Shown piece after piece: positions 4,954 to 38,689 of a stretch of DNA of 64,000 bases. Position numbers and translations under genes: made by a program. This DNA comes from an uncultured Bacteroidia bacterium (GTDB taxonomy: Bacteria > Bacteroidota > Bacteroidia > Bacteroidales > UBA932): the NCBI GenBank assembly GCA_902778105.1, contig CACYWN010000011.1, positions 61,588 to 125,587 on the forward strand, read 5' to 3'. Position 1 is the stretch's first letter, and each line of letters starts with the position of its first letter. The notes below the pieces were generated by a model. That model was not told the origin of the DNA and ran no database searches. It saw nothing but the letters and a program-made list of their open reading frames with translations.

Positions 4954-7434
4954 ATGTCGAGATTCCGTCTCATAGCGTTGTGGTTGCTGTTCCTGCTGCC
5001 CGCCCTGGTCTCCGCCCAAGTGACCCGGGTCCGGGGCACCGTGACGGATTCCCGAACGGGTCAGGGTATCCCCTATGCCCTGGTCTATTTCGAAGGGACG
5101 ATGATCGGCGTATCCTCCGACCGGTCCGGCAATTACCACATCGACAGCGACGATGCATCCTCCAATCTGGTGCTTACGGTCATCGTGGACGGATACAAGT
5201 CCCAGTCCTTTCCGATTGAAAACGGCGTCAACGCCCTGTTGGACATCGTCCTCAATCCCGAAGACAAGTCTGAATCCGACCAGGGGATCTACCTCCGTTC
5301 CATCCTGTATGAACTGGAGAACAACCGTCCCCGGCACGATCCGGAGCGGCGGGACGCCTGGCAGGCCGGCATTTACAGCAAGGTGGAACTGGCTGTCGCC
5401 AACGTGGACAACATCGTCGGAAAGGCCATCTTCCGGAAGATGAACGACCTGATCCCGGAACTGCAGGATTCTACGGCCTTCAACGGCTACATTCCGGTCC
5501 TTCTCTCCGAAGCCATCCTCCGGAGGTACCATTCCGTCAACCCCTCCGTGGACAAGGAAGTGTTCGAAGCCAGCCGCATCTCCGGCCTGGACCAGCAGAA
5601 CGTCCTCCGCCAGTTCACCGGCTCCTCCACCCTGCGGATGAACTTCTACCGGGACATCATCCCCGTCTTCAACATCAGCATCCCCTCCCCGGCCAGTTCC
5701 ATGGGGCACGTCTTTTATAACTATTCCCTGGTGGATAGCCTTTCCCTCGGCGGCCGGAAGACCTATTCGGTCACGTTCACGCCCAAGAAACTGATCACCT
5801 CCCCCACGTTCGAGGGAAGGATGGAAATCGATGCGGAGGACTTCGCCATCCACAGCGTCTACGCACGCCTGTCCCCCACATCGAACATCAACTGGATCAG
5901 GCAGATCGTCGTGGACAGCGAGAACGAGCGGCGGGAAGACGGCACCTGGTTCTTCCGGGACGAACAGATGTTCCTGGACGCAGCCTTGCGCATGAATGAC
6001 AAAGTCACCGTCGTCTCCGTCCAGATGAAACGTGACATGCAGTACACGTCCGTCGAATTCGGTCCCTTCCCGGGTGTAGAGGGCATGACAGGGGGCGACA
6101 AGGTCGAGGTGGGAGAACAGCCGGAAAAGGATTCCCTCTGGTGGGACGGGGCCCGTCCCGGAGATTTGACAGTCCGGGAAAAGGCCATCTTTACCACGGC
6201 TGAACGCTTCAAGGAGAAGCCCTCCTTCAAATGGCTTTCCGCCCTGGGGAACATGTTCACGACCGGATACCTCGAGAATACGGACATCGGCATCGGCTAT
6301 GGCCCCTGGGAACGGACCGTCACATTCAACGGGACGGAAGGCGTGCGCCTGCAGGTCGGCGGCCATACGACCAAGGAATTCAGCAGGAAGGTCCGGATCT
6401 TCGGTTTCGCCGCCTACGGCTTCCAGGACCGCCGGTGGAAAGGAGGCGCATCCACTGAATTCATGCTGGGAGACAACCAGAAACGGACGAACAAACTCAC
6501 CGTTTCGGCAGGCATCGACTATGAGAGCCTGGGACGGGGGTCCGGCGTCTTCACGGAGAAAAACATCATCAACTCCCTGCTGGCTCCGGGCGGTTTCGAC
6601 AAGCAAGGACTGGTTTTCAACGCCCAGATTGAACATCAGTACGAGTTCAGCCCGAACTTCAATTCAACCATTGCCCTTCAGCACAGGCGGATCTATGCGA
6701 ATCCGGACGTTCCTCTCGTCCGCCCTGACGGGACCCTGGCCGCGAGCTGCTCGGTCAACCAGATCCACTGGACCGGCCGGTTCTCCTGGGACGAGCGTAT
6801 CAACCGGGGCGTCTTTGACAAGGCCTATATCTTCACCCGGTATCCTATCGTATCGGTGGACCTTCTGGGCGGTATCAAGGGCATCACGGCAGACGACTGT
6901 TCCTTCCTGCGGGGCGAGCTTACCGTAGACTGGCGGATTCCTGCCGGATTTCTGGGATTCGGCAACCTGCACCTGAACGGCGGTGCCATCCTCGGATCCG
7001 TCCCCTATCCGCTGCTGAAGCTCCATGAAGGAAACCAGAGCCAACTGTTCGGCAGCCCCGTTGTGGGTCTCCTTGCGAAGTCGGCCTTCTCGATGATGAA
7101 CTTCTACGAGTTCGGGTCCGACCGCTGGGTCACCGGCTACTACGAACATAATTTCAACGGCCTGATGCTGGGTGTCATCCCGCTTGTCAAGGAACTTAAC
7201 CTCCGCGAGGTAGTCACCATTCGCGGCGCCTGGGGCACCATCACCGAACGCAACCGCAGCCAGGCTCCATTCCTGTTGATGGAAGGCCTTAACTCCCTGG
7301 AAACGCCTTACGTGGAAGCTGGCGTAGGCATCGCGAACATCTTCCATCTGGTCCGGGTGGACTGCTTCTGGAAGCTTACCCACCGCAATGGCCGGGATTT
7401 CTGCGTGAACATCGGCATCGATCTCGATTTCTGA
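4954..7434 (+). CDS. DUF5686 outer-membrane protein with carboxypeptidase-regulatory-like domain
   Basis: The 826-residue protein has a Sec signal peptide (LLFLLPALVSAQ, cleavage about residue 22), a CarboxypepD_reg-like beta-sandwich (about residues 25-105, starting VRGTVTDSRTGQGIPYALV), and a long C-terminal region rich in alternating aromatic/polar strands ending in aromatic residues (DLDF), as in outer-membrane barrels. This is the domain order of the Bacteroidetes DUF5686 family. The function is unknown; it is presumably an outer-membrane assembly or transport protein. It converges on the DUF4249 gene with 13 nt between stops. Confidence 0.8.
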   Translation: MSRFRLIALWLLFLLPALVSAQVTRVRGTVTDSRTGQGIPYALVYFEGTMIGVSSDRSGNYHIDSDDASSNLVLTVIVDGYKSQSFPIENGVNALLDIVLNPEDKSESDQGIYLRSILYELENNRPRHDPERRDAWQAGIYSKVELAVANVDNIVGKAIFRKMNDLIPELQDSTAFNGYIPVLLSEAILRRYHSVNPSVDKEVFEASRISGLDQQNVLRQFTGSSTLRMNFYRDIIPVFNISIPSPASSMGHVFYNYSLVDSLSLGGRKTYSVTFTPKKLITSPTFEGRMEIDAEDFAIHSVYARLSPTSNINWIRQIVVDSENERREDGTWFFRDEQMFLDAALRMNDKVTVVSVQMKRDMQYTSVEFGPFPGVEGMTGGDKVEVGEQPEKDSLWWDGARPGDLTVREKAIFTTAERFKEKPSFKWLSALGNMFTTGYLENTDIGIGYGPWERTVTFNGTEGVRLQVGGHTTKEFSRKVRIFGFAAYGFQDRRWKGGASTEFMLGDNQKRTNKLTVSAGIDYESLGRGSGVFTEKNIINSLLAPGGFDKQGLVFNAQIEHQYEFSPNFNSTIALQHRRIYANPDVPLVRPDGTLAASCSVNQIHWTGRFSWDERINRGVFDKAYIFTRYPIVSVDLLGGIKGITADDCSFLRGELTVDWRIPAGFLGFGNLHLNGGAILGSVPYPLLKLHEGNQSQLFGSPVVGLLAKSAFSMMNFYEFGSDRWVTGYYEHNFNGLMLGVIPLVKELNLREVVTIRGAWGTITERNRSQAPFLLMEGLNSLETPYVEAGVGIANIFHLVRVDCFWKLTHRNGRDFCVNIGIDLDF

Positions 7435-35116: not shown

Positions 35117-35189
35117 GGTGCTGTAGCTCAGATGGTAGAGCAATGGACTGAAAATCCATGTGTCGGCAGTTCGATTCTTCCCAGCACCA
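35117..35189 (+). tRNA. tRNA-Phe (anticodon GAA)
   Basis: A 73-nt cloverleaf can be drawn: acceptor GGTGCTG/CAGCACC, D arm GCTC/GAGC, anticodon stem ATGGA/TCCAT with loop CTGAAAA (anticodon GAA), T loop TTCGATT and discriminator A. CCA is not encoded. The T stem GGCAG/CTTCC has one C-T mismatch at its centre. The last 13 nt of the gene form the left copy of a 14-bp direct repeat whose second copy is at 39277, so this tRNA is the attachment site of an integrated element. Confidence 0.93.
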
Positions 35190-35190
35190 C
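35177..35190 (+). other. attL core repeat
   Basis: CTTCCCAGCACCAC overlaps the 3' end of tRNA-Phe and is identical to 39277-39290. The tRNA-proximal copy keeps the gene whole, as for tyrosine-recombinase elements. Confidence 0.8.
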
Positions 35191-35292: not shown

Positions 35293-35324
35293 AGACCATT
35301 TTCGTGAGGTTACGAAAATGGTCT
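35293..35324. repeat. Palindrome duplicated from dinD coding sequence
   Basis: AGACCATTTTCGT (35293-35305) and its exact complement (35312-35324) flank a GAGGTT loop. The plus strand encodes DHFREVTKMV followed by a stop and matches, with one loop mismatch, the internal dinD segment at 35979-36008 in the opposite orientation. Confidence 0.9.
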
Positions 35325-35345
35325 AGCTTGTGTTATAATGTAGAT

Positions 35346-36212
35346 TTATTTCATTTTGGGCAACTTTGGTGAGGACTTTTCTATTTTCTTTTGCTCAGAT
35401 GCTACTCTACGTTCCAACTTCTTTATATCTTCTGCGGGAGGTAGTTCCTCCGGACGGATACCACGTTGCCCAAGCATATCACGCACGCTCTTATTGTTTT
35501 GCATATGCTCACGGGTTATGTCATTCTCTCCATACAAATCATTGCTCTCGACGTTGTAGTTCGTCATTTCCGTAGCAAGATTCTTTGCCGCAATAGTAAG
35601 TGTGGGCAAGAAATCAGCAAGTGGGCGATTATCTTTGACGCCAAGACGTCTTTTCATATCTTCTGTGGTATGGCCTCCGAAAAGGACGGCATCCCCCTTG
35701 GAACGAATACGTCCGAACCCCTTGTCGTCCACGCCACGCTCATATATATTTTGAGAGAGCTGTTTTTCTGAAGCACGCAGTCTATCGCGAGACTCAAGGC
35801 GGGCAATATAGTTGATACGTTCCTCAATTAGTTCGGCTCTTCTAGTCTGAACAGCAAAGTAGCTCTGTGCAAAAGCCACTTCTTCTTTCTTCGGGTCTCC
35901 GTTTTGTGCGATTAGATAACACGCATACCGAGTGAGCATATAGTCTTTGACCTCGCGCTCAGCTCCGCTTCCCAGCTTGACCATTTTCGTGACCTCACGA
36001 AAATGGTCGTCAACATTGACTCCCTGCGTATTGCATGACTCAACAGCTCTGTTGATGGCTGTCTGAAAGTTCTCCCAACGCGCATAGCCGAGTACTTTCT
36101 GTAAATCTCTTGCAAACCAAACCTCGATATGCTCTTTTCTATTATCACTCTCGATGTAAGTCTCGATAGCATCAAAAGCAGATTTGTATTGTATGATACT
36201 TTGTTTATCCAT
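35346..36212 (-). CDS. dinD: DNA damage-inducible protein D
   Basis: The 288-residue protein matches the DinD family along its length. The N-terminal BRO/KilA-N-like region reads EVWFARDLQKVLGYARWENFQTAINRAVESC; next come FREVTKMVKLGSGAEREVKDYMLTRYACYLIAQNGDP and AFAQSYFAVQTRRAELIEERINYIARLESRDRL, and the C-terminal half contains GVDDKGFGRIRSKGDAVLFGGHTTEDMK. In E. coli DinD is SOS-induced and inhibits RecA. Homologues are frequent on mobile elements. Its promoter box is at 36232. No LexA box is recognised, since the local consensus is unknown. Confidence 0.9.
   Translation of the reverse strand: MDKQSIIQYKSAFDAIETYIESDNRKEHIEVWFARDLQKVLGYARWENFQTAINRAVESCNTQGVNVDDHFREVTKMVKLGSGAEREVKDYMLTRYACYLIAQNGDPKKEEVAFAQSYFAVQTRRAELIEERINYIARLESRDRLRASEKQLSQNIYERGVDDKGFGRIRSKGDAVLFGGHTTEDMKRRLGVKDNRPLADFLPTLTIAAKNLATEMTNYNVESNDLYGENDITREHMQNNKSVRDMLGQRGIRPEELPPAEDIKKLERRVASEQKKIEKSSPKLPKMK
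35979..36008. repeat. Hairpin-forming segment inside dinD (second copy of the palindrome)
   Basis: GACCATTTTCGT (35979-35990) and its complement (35997-36008) flank GACCTC. On the minus strand it encodes DHFREVTKMV, a conserved part of DinD. It pairs perfectly with itself and nearly so with the copy at 35293-35324. Confidence 0.9.
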
Positions 36213-36539: not shown

Positions 36540-37000
36540 CGAAGGTAGGACCTTCGCACCGCACTGAGGGAGACACTTAACATAATCCGAATTGTGTAAT
36601 CAGACGCCCTGTAGGCCGTTTTTGCGGGCTTCTGACCCATTTATATTCGACTCCGCTCGAGCGGGGTACTGACGGTGCCGGCGTGTTACACAATTCCGAT
36701 GGGATTATGTTAAGTGCCCGGATTCTGGGCACTGACGCTCGCGCCGGTACTCCGCCTCCCGGGCGATTATCTCCCCTGGGGCTGGGGGGATAAAAGGATG
36801 GGAGTCTGTGGACGGCTTGTCCGGCCACAGTCTCCCATACCGCTTTTTCTTTTATATGTGCCGTCCTGGACGCCTCGGCGTCCAGGTGGGCACTCATTGA
36901 GCCCAGCCGCTTTGGGCTGGCAAGCTCTGCTGGACTGCCGAATGCGGATGACCGCTTTCTCTATCGGCCCGAGCTGCACTGCCACCGGAGCCTGGCTCCA
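36540..37000 (+). ncRNA. Hairpin array, candidate large structured RNA (strand uncertain)
   Basis: This stretch has no credible gene and is GC-richer than the rest of the island. It holds a chain of strong hairpins: 36540-36556 (7 bp), the 36574-36716 long inverted repeat, 36714-36732 (6 bp), 36799-36837 (12 of 13 bp, then a T-rich tract), 36858-36893 (9-10 bp perfect core closed by GTGCC/GGCAC), 36899-36927, 36944-36955 and 36987-36999. The density suggests a structured RNA or a single-strand recombination substrate. No promoter was found directly upstream on either strand. Confidence 0.4.
36574..36716. repeat. Long imperfect inverted repeat with GTTAAGT-type ends
   Basis: CACTTAACATAATCC plus GAATTGTGTAA (36574-36599) is mirrored by 36686-36716, which carries a 5-nt insertion CGATG between the two blocks. 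The 86-nt interior holds two further hairpins. The ends ACTTAAC and GTTAAGT fit the RYYYAAC/GTTRRRY boxes of integron attC sites, but the paired spacers do not, so it is recorded only as an inverted repeat. Confidence 0.75.
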
Positions 37001-37059: not shown

Positions 37060-37090
37060 TTGTTCGTTTCGCTTCTTTTGGTTACCTTTG
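37060..37090 (+). promoter_or_regulatory. Promoter of the pseudoknot RNA and lipoprotein gene
   Basis: TTG at 37060-37062, a 20-bp spacer and TACCTTTG at 37083-37090. Transcription should start a few bases later, just before the first paired strand at 37098. Confidence 0.75.
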
Positions 37091-37093
37091 TAC

Positions 37094-37263
37094 TTGACAT
37101 AAGATGCCTTGTAACCATCAGAACTGCGACACTTGATTTTTTTCAAGGCATAGAATCATCTTATGAGTGCAAGCAATACACGGGTGTGTACTGCTTTGCA
37201 TTGATGATTAGGATGTCGCAGTCCTATGATGGTGTGCAAAGGCCAACAGTGCGCACCTTTTTT
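37094..37263 (+). ncRNA. Predicted pseudoknotted RNA with own terminator
   Basis: Two long helices interlock. Helix 1 pairs CATAAGATG+CCTTG (37098-37111) with CAAGG (37144-37148) and CATCTTATG (37157-37165). Helix 2 pairs ACCATCA and ACTGCGACA (37114-37120, 37123-37131) with TGTCGCAGT and TGATGGT (37214-37222, 37227-37233). The 5' strand of helix 2 lies inside the loop of helix 1, giving an H-type pseudoknot. A third hairpin is at 37168-37200. GGTGTGC/GCGCACC (37231-37257) plus six T forms a terminator that shares 3 nt with helix 2. It may be a small RNA or a leader controlling the lipoprotein gene 29 nt downstream. Confidence 0.65.
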
Positions 37264-37291: not shown

Positions 37292-37753
37292 ATGAAGAAA
37301 TTATTCTCTTTCCTGGCCATCATGGCCGTTGCCTCTCTCAGTTTTATGTCCTGCGAAAAGGCTAATACGGATACTGATTCTGCCTATTTCTCTGAAGCAG
37401 AGAAGGCCGCTTTAAAAGTTCTTAACGGTTCGTTTACTTACACTCTCAGCGTTGGGAGTTGGTCCAATACCACTACAGTTACTTTCCTTGAGCAGTACAA
37501 TCCCCCAAAAAAGGGAACGCTTGATGACGGCACAGAGATTCGGGTTCACGGAAAGTACCGTATCGTATACGATGCCGGAGAAACTTTTGAAAAATATTAC
37601 AACCTTTCAAATAACGCTGACAGGATTTATTCATACTTTAACCTGACGGGGATCAACTCAATCCAAAAGAAGGATTTCAGAGTAGTTGACGACAACACAA
37701 TCCAGATTAAGGAAGTTAAAGATGTTCTATGGGACACTTATAAACGTAAATAA
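37292..37753 (+). CDS. Hypothetical lipoprotein (island cargo)
   Basis: The 153-residue protein has a lipoprotein signal (LAIMAVASLSFMSC, Cys about residue 20) and a small beta-rich domain I do not recognise, similar in style to lipocalin-like Bacteroidetes lipoproteins (LNGSFTYTLSVGSWSNTTTVTFLEQY). It lies behind the pseudoknot RNA and 2 nt before a beta-barrel gene, so the two products probably work together at the cell surface. Codon use is AT-richer than in the flanking chromosome. Confidence 0.7.
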   Translation: MKKLFSFLAIMAVASLSFMSCEKANTDTDSAYFSEAEKAALKVLNGSFTYTLSVGSWSNTTTVTFLEQYNPPKKGTLDDGTEIRVHGKYRIVYDAGETFEKYYNLSNNADRIYSYFNLTGINSIQKKDFRVVDDNTIQIKEVKDVLWDTYKRK

Positions 37754-37755
37754 CT

Positions 37756-38340
37756 ATGAGAAAACTAATTATCGCATTGTCTTTTGCTCTATTCTCCCTT
37801 CTTGCATCGGCACAGAATGGAGGATACGAGTTCTCTGCGGAAGCGACCGGTGCAATTGGTATATCGAAAAACTCCAAGTATAATGTTGGTGCCTCTATCA
37901 TTAATGGCTATCGCTTTAATGATAGGTTTGCCATCGGCCTGGGTATTGGCTTCCGCTATGCCGAAACTCTTTATTATTATTCCGAGGACAGTAAACTCGG
38001 CAATTATGAGAGTCGTGACAACAAGTTTTTACTTCCCATCTTCCTTCGTGCTAAGTTTGACTTCATCGAAGGGAAAATTGCACCGTTCATCATTGGCGAT
38101 ATCGGCTATACTATAGATGTGGGTCAGAATCAGTATAAGAATCTTGAGGCTCTTTTCGTTGAACCGATAATCGGCGTTGACTTTAAAACAGGTAAATCGA
38201 CATGGTTCCTGGGGCTTGGCGTGAATGTACAGCAGCATCACTATCAGTATTTCCATATTTCCTCTGTGACCATGTCGAGCGAAAGAAGGGTGAATGGTGT
38301 CGCACCCACCCTGGCACTTCATTTTGGCGTACAGTTTTAA
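37756..38340 (+). CDS. Small outer-membrane beta-barrel protein (island cargo)
   Basis: The 194-residue protein has a Sec signal peptide (LIIALSFALFSLLASAQ) and a porin-family-like barrel of about eight strands, ending in the aromatic FGVQF typical for BAM substrates. It starts 2 nt after the lipoprotein gene and is followed by an orphan gene after 19 nt. It could be a surface-exclusion, phage-receptor-masking or adhesion protein; nothing in the sequence decides. Confidence 0.7.
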   Translation: MRKLIIALSFALFSLLASAQNGGYEFSAEATGAIGISKNSKYNVGASIINGYRFNDRFAIGLGIGFRYAETLYYYSEDSKLGNYESRDNKFLLPIFLRAKFDFIEGKIAPFIIGDIGYTIDVGQNQYKNLEALFVEPIIGVDFKTGKSTWFLGLGVNVQQHHYQYFHISSVTMSSERRVNGVAPTLALHFGVQF

Positions 38341-38359
38341 CTATAAACACTAAGGACCT

Positions 38360-38689
38360 ATGGCAAAGGGAACAAGAATAGACCTTCCTGGCGTTGGAGT
38401 TGGTTATTCCGTTGATATGACGGACACCCTCGACCAGATGAAAAGGAAAATGGTGTTTGACCAGTATGCAGAAAAGGTGGTCCACTATCAGCGTTTTGTT
38501 AAGCCATCTATCTCAGAATCTATGGCTAAGGGCATCTTAGAATTATGCGCTGCCATGATATACAATGATAACCCCTCCGATGAAGAGATGGACGAATTCG
38601 CTGAGAAGACTGCAAAGAAATGGGGCGTCGATTGTGAGGAATTATGCTCTGAGTTCTTTGAATTCAGTGATTACGTTCACGGCGACTAA
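38360..38689 (+). CDS. Hypothetical protein, 109 residues (island cargo)
   Basis: A soluble, acidic, probably helical protein with no signal peptide. The central part (PSISESMAKGILELCAAMIYNDNPSDEEMDEFAEKTAKKWGVDCEELCSEFFEF) is rich in Glu and Asp. I do not recognise a family. It is the last gene of the three-gene plus-strand unit and ends shortly before a hairpin terminator shared with the convergent gene. Confidence 0.6.
   Translation: MAKGTRIDLPGVGVGYSVDMTDTLDQMKRKMVFDQYAEKVVHYQRFVKPSISESMAKGILELCAAMIYNDNPSDEEMDEFAEKTAKKWGVDCEELCSEFFEFSDYVHGD

Follow-up and report, generated by a model that had tools for sequence, protein, structure and literature searches.

The window analysed here, a stretch of 64,000 nucleotides from an uncultured Bacteroidia bacterium, carries an RNA element on its forward strand between a promoter-like motif and a set of three genes. 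The motif is a −7-like box, TACCTTTG, at positions 37083-37090 (+), which ends at 37090 as the initial annotation of this DNA had noted, and a TTG at 37060-37062 lies about 20 nt 5′ of it. The promoter consensus of Bacteroidetes is TAnnTTTG. Behind the RNA and on the same strand follow a lipoprotein-like gene (37292-37753, 153 aa, no Pfam family), a gene for an outer-membrane beta-barrel protein (37756-38340, 194 aa, Pfam OMP_b-brl 1.5e-7) and, as the third of the set, a gene for a small acidic protein (38360-38689, 109 aa, no Pfam family). This position fits a leader of the lipoprotein gene at 37292, one of the two roles that had been suggested for the RNA. The surroundings had also been described as a tRNA island; a tRNA-Phe gene is indeed near (35117-35190), but it is the single tRNA of the whole window.

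Two further repeats were seen upstream of the element. A palindrome of 30-35 nt (GACCATTTTCGTGA...) occurs in two inverted copies, at 35294-35328 and 35974-36008, one within a Bro-N gene (35346-36212) and the other between this gene and the tRNA-Phe gene, and possibly it is a recombination or regulatory site. An inverted repeat, CACTTAACATAATCC...AATTGTGTAA, at 36574-36600 and 36686-36716 encloses approximately 90-110 bp and has what we take to be a likeness to Xer/dif half-sites.

The strands of the element (all +) can be arranged in two ways. In the rod state the 5′ half pairs with the 3′ half through P2b (37114-37120 with 37227-37233, 7 bp), P2a (37123-37131 with 37214-37222, 9 bp) and P3 (37154-37160 with 37203-37209), the three 3′ strands thus following each other within 37203-37233, and the rod is capped by the apical hairpin P4 (37168-37200; 37177-37181 with 37186-37190 plus flanking pairs). 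In the two-hairpin state the leader strand 37098-37111 pairs within 37144-37165, a segment whose last five bases (37161-37165) lie just after the P3 5′ strand, and the strand 37183-37200 forms a long terminator hairpin of 18 bp with 37235-37257 (37183-37193 with 37247-37257, and 37194-37200 with 37235-37241). The initial annotation had named the leader pairing helix 1, a composite helix, and P2b plus P2a helix 2, and both are found in the window. It had also placed a terminator at 37231-37263, where a local hairpin of 7 bp (37231-37237 with 37251-37257) is followed by a T6 run (37258-37263) and shares GGT (37231-37233) with helix 2. This short hairpin exists, but the predicted terminator of the family is the longer one, 37183-37200 with 37235-37257, and the U-run stands directly after its stem as well. 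A small hairpin B (37209-37226; TAGGA 37209-37213 with TCCTA 37222-37226) encloses the P2a 3′ strand and is suggestive only. Folding of the element's strand gave −59.2 kcal/mol against −41.9 ± 4.1 kcal/mol for shuffled versions (z −4.26), and none of 200 shuffles came as low.

Homologues and their distribution

DNA similarity did not find the family: a search of 199 genomes of the bacterial family returned no homologue except the window's own copy, and the hits L002 and L003, with 33 and 19 matching bases inside coding sequence, look like chance. The window copy likewise gave no match among phages and plasmids. The first copies beyond the window were reached through the neighbouring proteins. 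Relatives of the window lipoprotein are present in two of the 198 other family genomes (L006 and L005, the latter cut by a contig end), and in L006 the same RNA, with a differing sequence, stands ahead of the lipoprotein relative. The window's outer-membrane protein is 63% identical to that of L006 and 62% to that of L005, and the third gene is 73% identical between the window and L006; lipoprotein, outer-membrane barrel and an acidic protein of 108-109 aa form a conserved three-gene set behind the RNA in the window (37292-38689) and in L006. A third copy, L009, was reached via an alignment of the outer-membrane protein (A1) in the genome of an uncultured Bacteroidales. Here the RNA is followed by a lipoprotein without similarity to that of the window and then by the same outer-membrane protein, and the start codon begins on the final base of the modelled RNA. 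The L009 copy and its two genes (5025-7167) directly adjoin a tmRNA gene (6773-7167). These three seeds thus came from neighbour-protein searches and not from an RNA model.

A covariance model, R1, was built from the three seeds and includes the local terminator stem of 4 bp and eight P4 pairs. It matched over its whole length in four of 198 family genomes (those of the window and L006 counted) and in eight of 393 genomes of the order (that of the window counted). A second model, R2, was built from 12 copies and holds P2b, P2a and P3 as its sole pairs. With R2 at least 82 of the 393 order genomes had a match at E ≤ 0.01, the best match having E ≤ 0.001 in 80 of these, and in a sample of 395 genomes from the phylum at least 14 had one at E ≤ 0.001 (that of the window counted), E-values of the covariance searches applying to one genome. 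A fuller R2 search of 11 genomes found copies in every one, their number ranging from one to at least 16. All these counts are floors, with seven candidates per genome scored in the order and phylum scans and at most 150 in the fuller search.

The family extends to mobile DNA. The consensus-like copy L055 finds two mobilizable plasmids, of Chryseobacterium and Rhizosphaericola, and gave no match among phages, and covariance search shows RNA copies on contigs of a viral collection too. Among the carriers, Rhizosphaericola mali is a cultured one. A search for the P4 pattern of the three seed copies among viral contigs returned ten stretches, none of which has flanks like those of the RNA, and the alignment of the outer-membrane protein found no relative among viral contigs. 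On the viral contig L090 the RNA copy lies about 1.3 kb from an integrase-like gene, as judged by eye, and on L106 it stands immediately 5′ of an RteC gene. Some neighbouring copies are spaced by 0.6-3 kb. At L035 (3804-5154, the same place as L026) four tandem matches share a strand and span about 1.4 kb. Three are weak (36, 32 and 26 bits), and the matches could be decayed tandem copies. Outside the order of the window, a single genus contributes six copies, one per genome (L107, L108, L109, L110, L116 and L118). On inspection by eye, at least five of them are preceded by a divergent HTH-like gene and five are followed, after 200-500 nt, by a large gene for a secreted, receptor-like product; L109 has in addition a topoisomerase-like fragment upstream. 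Perhaps these copies belong to one integrative element.

Two sets of matched pairings that exclude each other as nested folds

For quantification of the covariation we used the alignment A8, in which 63 sources gave 68 rows and 67 distinct copies. It leaves out shorter fetches of included places and near-identical copies (e.g. L058, L071 and L087), the tandem locus L026/L035 with its one strong and three weak matches, the viral loci L088/L089 and the phylum loci L107-L120. Taking P2b, P2a and P3 together, 96.3% of the cells hold standard pairs and 19 of the 20 pairs show two-sided changes, a pairing count that is favoured by the selection of most copies with a model holding P2 and P3. P2b is 99.3% paired with two-sided changes at all six pairs, P2a 97.3% with such changes at seven of eight, and P3 92.0% with changes at six of six. 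The covariation score over the three helices was 0.956, compared with 0.208 in shuffled alignments and at most 0.130 in slid ones. The three protein-found seeds taken alone are 93.3% paired in these helices and have two-sided changes at five of the 20 pairs, a result reached by one of 500 shuffles. It is clear that helix 2 of the initial annotation, namely P2b and P2a, carries compensatory changes across the 67 copies, and that the helix sequences vary freely: every P2b pair varies and there is no constant core. A candidate pairing of GCC(U/C)U with ARGGC, placed in the loop that follows P2a, was noticed by eye solely in the window, L006 and L009, and was set aside.

The second fold was analyzed by cutting each of the 67 copies at the apical loop and folding the halves separately. 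The right half alone folds into a long hairpin reaching to the U-run, with a median z of −4.44 and values below −2 in all 67 copies. The left half alone forms the leader hairpin and beats its shuffles just moderately, with a median z of −1.99, values below −1 in 52 copies and below −2 in 32; in the window this left hairpin includes helix 1 and the right one is the 18-bp hairpin described above. We then offered each strand the partner of another copy and compared the duplex energies over 2000 permutations. For the leader and the P3-arm 5′ strand the energies were −14.5 with matched and −9.9 with swapped partners (z −15.0, 0/2000), and for the P3-arm 3′ strand and the tail they were −22.5 and −16.3 (z −15.9, 0/2000), z values that are inflated because the copies are related; three control pairings gave z of +1.0, +1.0 and −0.1. 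Ungapped versions of the test, with 63 of the 67 copies and with all 67, likewise speak for the second-fold pairings. None of these pairings was held by the model R2. A pairing of at least 6 bp between P4b and the tail that abuts a U-run of at least four is found in 62 of the 67 copies, five falling short of this definition.

Since the second-fold pairings use strands of P3 and P4, the rod and the two hairpins cannot be nested together. Both sets of pairings are kept by matched changes, and as nested folds they are mutually exclusive. This alters the picture given in the initial annotation, where helices 1 and 2 were taken as an interlocked pseudoknot. Both helices exist, and the partner swap bears out the pairing of helix 1, but the knot itself is not needed because the leader hairpin and the longer terminator nest in an alternative fold incompatible with helix 2. 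The two helices are better read as members of alternative folds, and the suggestion that the long helix competes with termination is supported by these alternatives.

One may still consider that all helices, leader helix and P2 included, are present together in one pseudoknotted or loop-loop-kissing RNA, where two small hairpins would kiss through P2a; the element would then be an aptamer for a ligand or protein, and termination would be secondary. The conserved pairing between the leader and the segment after P3a agrees with it, as does the interlocked geometry first described, and the mini-stems flanking both P2a strands match their own partners with z of 5.5 (stem B, 0/2000) and 5.7. These P2a-flanking stems are, as a possible kissing-loop pair, suggestive; in the alignment, however, pairing of stem B reaches only 78.6%, and of the two cross-pairing controls one came out positive as well (z 6.4). 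Moreover, the extended leader helix and the extended terminator take up one strand each of the P3 arm (5′ and 3′, respectively) and so would break this arm and P4, and the nested alternatives account for the helices without a knot. We consider such a coexisting structure unlikely.

The computed energies differ between the two folds. The rod is the more stable in 61 of the 67 copies, with a median difference of 11.9 kcal/mol, and another construction gave a median of 11.3 kcal/mol in its favour. Left unconstrained, 49 of the 67 copies have their minimum within 1 kcal/mol of the rod, and one has it that close to the terminator fold. Because of this preference a kinetic or ligand effect must be assumed for a switch to operate. 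In addition the tail pairs with the segment after the U-run (z 5.0, 0/1000; controls −0.6 and −0.4; 63 of the 67 copies). The usually greater stability of the rod, this pairing of the tail with the segment between U-run and start codon, and the diversity of the downstream genes described below would all suit a constitutive 5′ leader acting on mRNA stability or translation, where nothing switches and the U-run serves ribosome binding or processing. Such a leader leaves unexplained why two exclusive sets of matched pairings are kept, one of them ending at the U-run in 62 of 67 copies, and we regard it as quite unlikely. An ATG is present in the leader region of 47 of 66 copies, an uncontrolled count that has no bearing on leader peptides.

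Genomic position, cargo genes and a proposed mechanism

The genomic position was counted for 87 distinct fetched copies (88 listed), five of which have no downstream sequence, leaving 82; L113 (a short fetch) and open reading frames lying across the RNA were left out, and the fetched copies are part of all R2 matches. Open reading frames were called mechanically and signal peptides by a crude hydrophobicity rule. Of the 82 copies, 75 are followed by a gene of their own strand, with 58 at a distance of 150 nt or less, whereas the upstream gene shares the strand in 47 of 82; several RNAs end 0-30 nt from a start codon. TAnnTTTG occurs within 150 nt upstream of 58 of 86 copies, compared with 12.0 expected from 2-mer block shuffles, and promoter box, element and U-run keep their order and orientation across copies.

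These numbers bear on two further explanations. The second role offered by the initial annotation, that of a stand-alone small RNA, here taken as one of about 170 nt acting in trans, fits the RNA having its own promoter-like box and terminator, but 75 of the 82 copies precede a same-strand gene, 58 of them within 150 nt, several end almost at its start codon, and the helices are free to vary in sequence, all of which makes it very improbable. An integron-like recombination or cassette site acting at the DNA level as a folded single strand could be imagined from the diverse accessory cargo, from the copies on two mobilizable plasmids and on viral-collection contigs, from the L009 copy beside the tmRNA gene and from the neighbouring copies 0.6-3 kb apart. 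Integron attC sites have a conserved R-box core. The element shows no such constant core, a comparison judged on the variation of every P2b pair alone, and its promoter box and U-run keep their order and orientation around it; we give this explanation hardly any credence.

The genes behind the element, which we call its cargo, are diverse. A signal-peptide-like start was called in 41 of 75 cargo proteins and in 150 of 523 other proteins of the same loci (Fisher p 1.6e-5). Pfam was searched with 50 of the 62 listed cargo proteins, of which 21 had no family at E ≤ 0.01 and the rest were widely spread, examples being LRR_5, SprB, Por secretion tails, VWA, CsgG, RteC, EcoRI methylase, RibD_C, RmuC, helicase, histidine kinase and HTH, among others. 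By Pfam no common pathway was found among these 50 proteins, in contrast to the single pathway expected behind a riboswitch, and since the cargo genes share no pathway they suggest no ligand.

We consider it probable, from the position of the leader between a promoter-like box and a same-strand gene and from the two exclusive folds, that the element is a cis-acting two-state transcription attenuator. The RNA would be transcribed from the promoter just upstream, as its motif suggests. In state I, P2b, P2a, P3 and P4 would join the two halves of the RNA into one long rod; the terminator's 5′ strand would then be occupied, and the polymerase could read through into the gene. In state II the leader would pair with the 5′ side of the P3 arm while the 3′ side of this arm pairs with the tail before the U-run, and the resulting long terminator hairpin (18 bp in the window) is predicted to stop transcription. 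The left hairpin, being made first, may decide whether the rod zips, and a signal, be it a metabolite, a protein or another RNA, would bias the choice between the folds. The pairing of the tail with the segment after the U-run might hold the readthrough state, for which the evidence is weaker than for the two folds.

Beyond the single leader, it is a tentative idea that the attenuator represents a new, widespread class of bistable RNA travelling with accessory genes, a general switch that places newly acquired genes under common control of one cellular signal. As part of this same tentative idea, the switch would front surface-protein, restriction and conjugation genes as well as others. Should the attenuator reading hold, a large and apparently undescribed RNA family controls surface genes and horizontally acquired genes across Bacteroidota; its signal should, given so diverse a cargo, be a general one, and would tell how these bacteria control their mobile and surface genes. 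With both folds conserved, the mechanism lends itself to direct tests.

Relation to known RNA families

The initial annotation did not recognise a known family, and the covariance search against Rfam agrees. With Rfam 15 at gathering score the window matched the tRNA alone and the element was unmatched, and the six matches around the element up to an E-value of 5 were all far below their own gathering scores. At 20 other loci the element was unmatched too, the single match being the tmRNA beside it, and at six loci nothing was found at E ≤ 1. The element as found here is not described in the literature searched, a scope that lay outside supplements and most subscription papers. None of the text consulted in PMC2864571, PMC7366714, PMC9723704 and PMC8040213 describes the leader element, and in the accessible parts of PMC11109978 and PMC8632094 five Bacteroidetes names have zero occurrences.

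Flavo-1 (RF01705) and other Bacteroidetes motifs are presented in the accessible part of PMC2864571 as computationally found structured RNAs with no known function, and our element resembles these motifs in being a Bacteroidetes structured RNA found by computation. It differs from Flavo-1 in having no Rfam match even at E ≤ 1 (6 loci). It is also oriented, with 75 of 82 copies on the same strand as the next gene, whereas Flavo-1 hits lie indistinctly in sense and antisense according to the part of PMC9723704 available to us. The accessible text of PMC8040213 lists palindromic terminator-like candidates of 80-132 nt, mostly from Bacteroidetes (e.g. HMP2_4205, HMP2_1032 and HMP_4078), several of them with a predicted intrinsic terminator and near TPR, TonB or phage genes. 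They are described there as palindromic only, and our comparison with them is by description and not by sequence; some copies of the element may already be among these candidates, unrecognised as a switch.

With the tRNA-responsive T-box leaders the element shares the plan of a leader RNA that switches a terminator, and it is set apart from them on Rfam alone, where it has no match. In design the element resembles the transcription-attenuation riboswitches and leader attenuators, which also combine an upstream promoter box, a 5′ leader, mutually exclusive terminator and anti-terminator folds and a U-run. Unlike these, the element has no known ligand, leader peptide or protein, no match in Rfam 15 and an unusually diverse cargo, and it switches between one rod and two side-by-side hairpins. 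Collectively, these comparisons point to a new and apparently undescribed family within a known kind of regulatory RNA, one whose design, a rod against two hairpins, is unusual.
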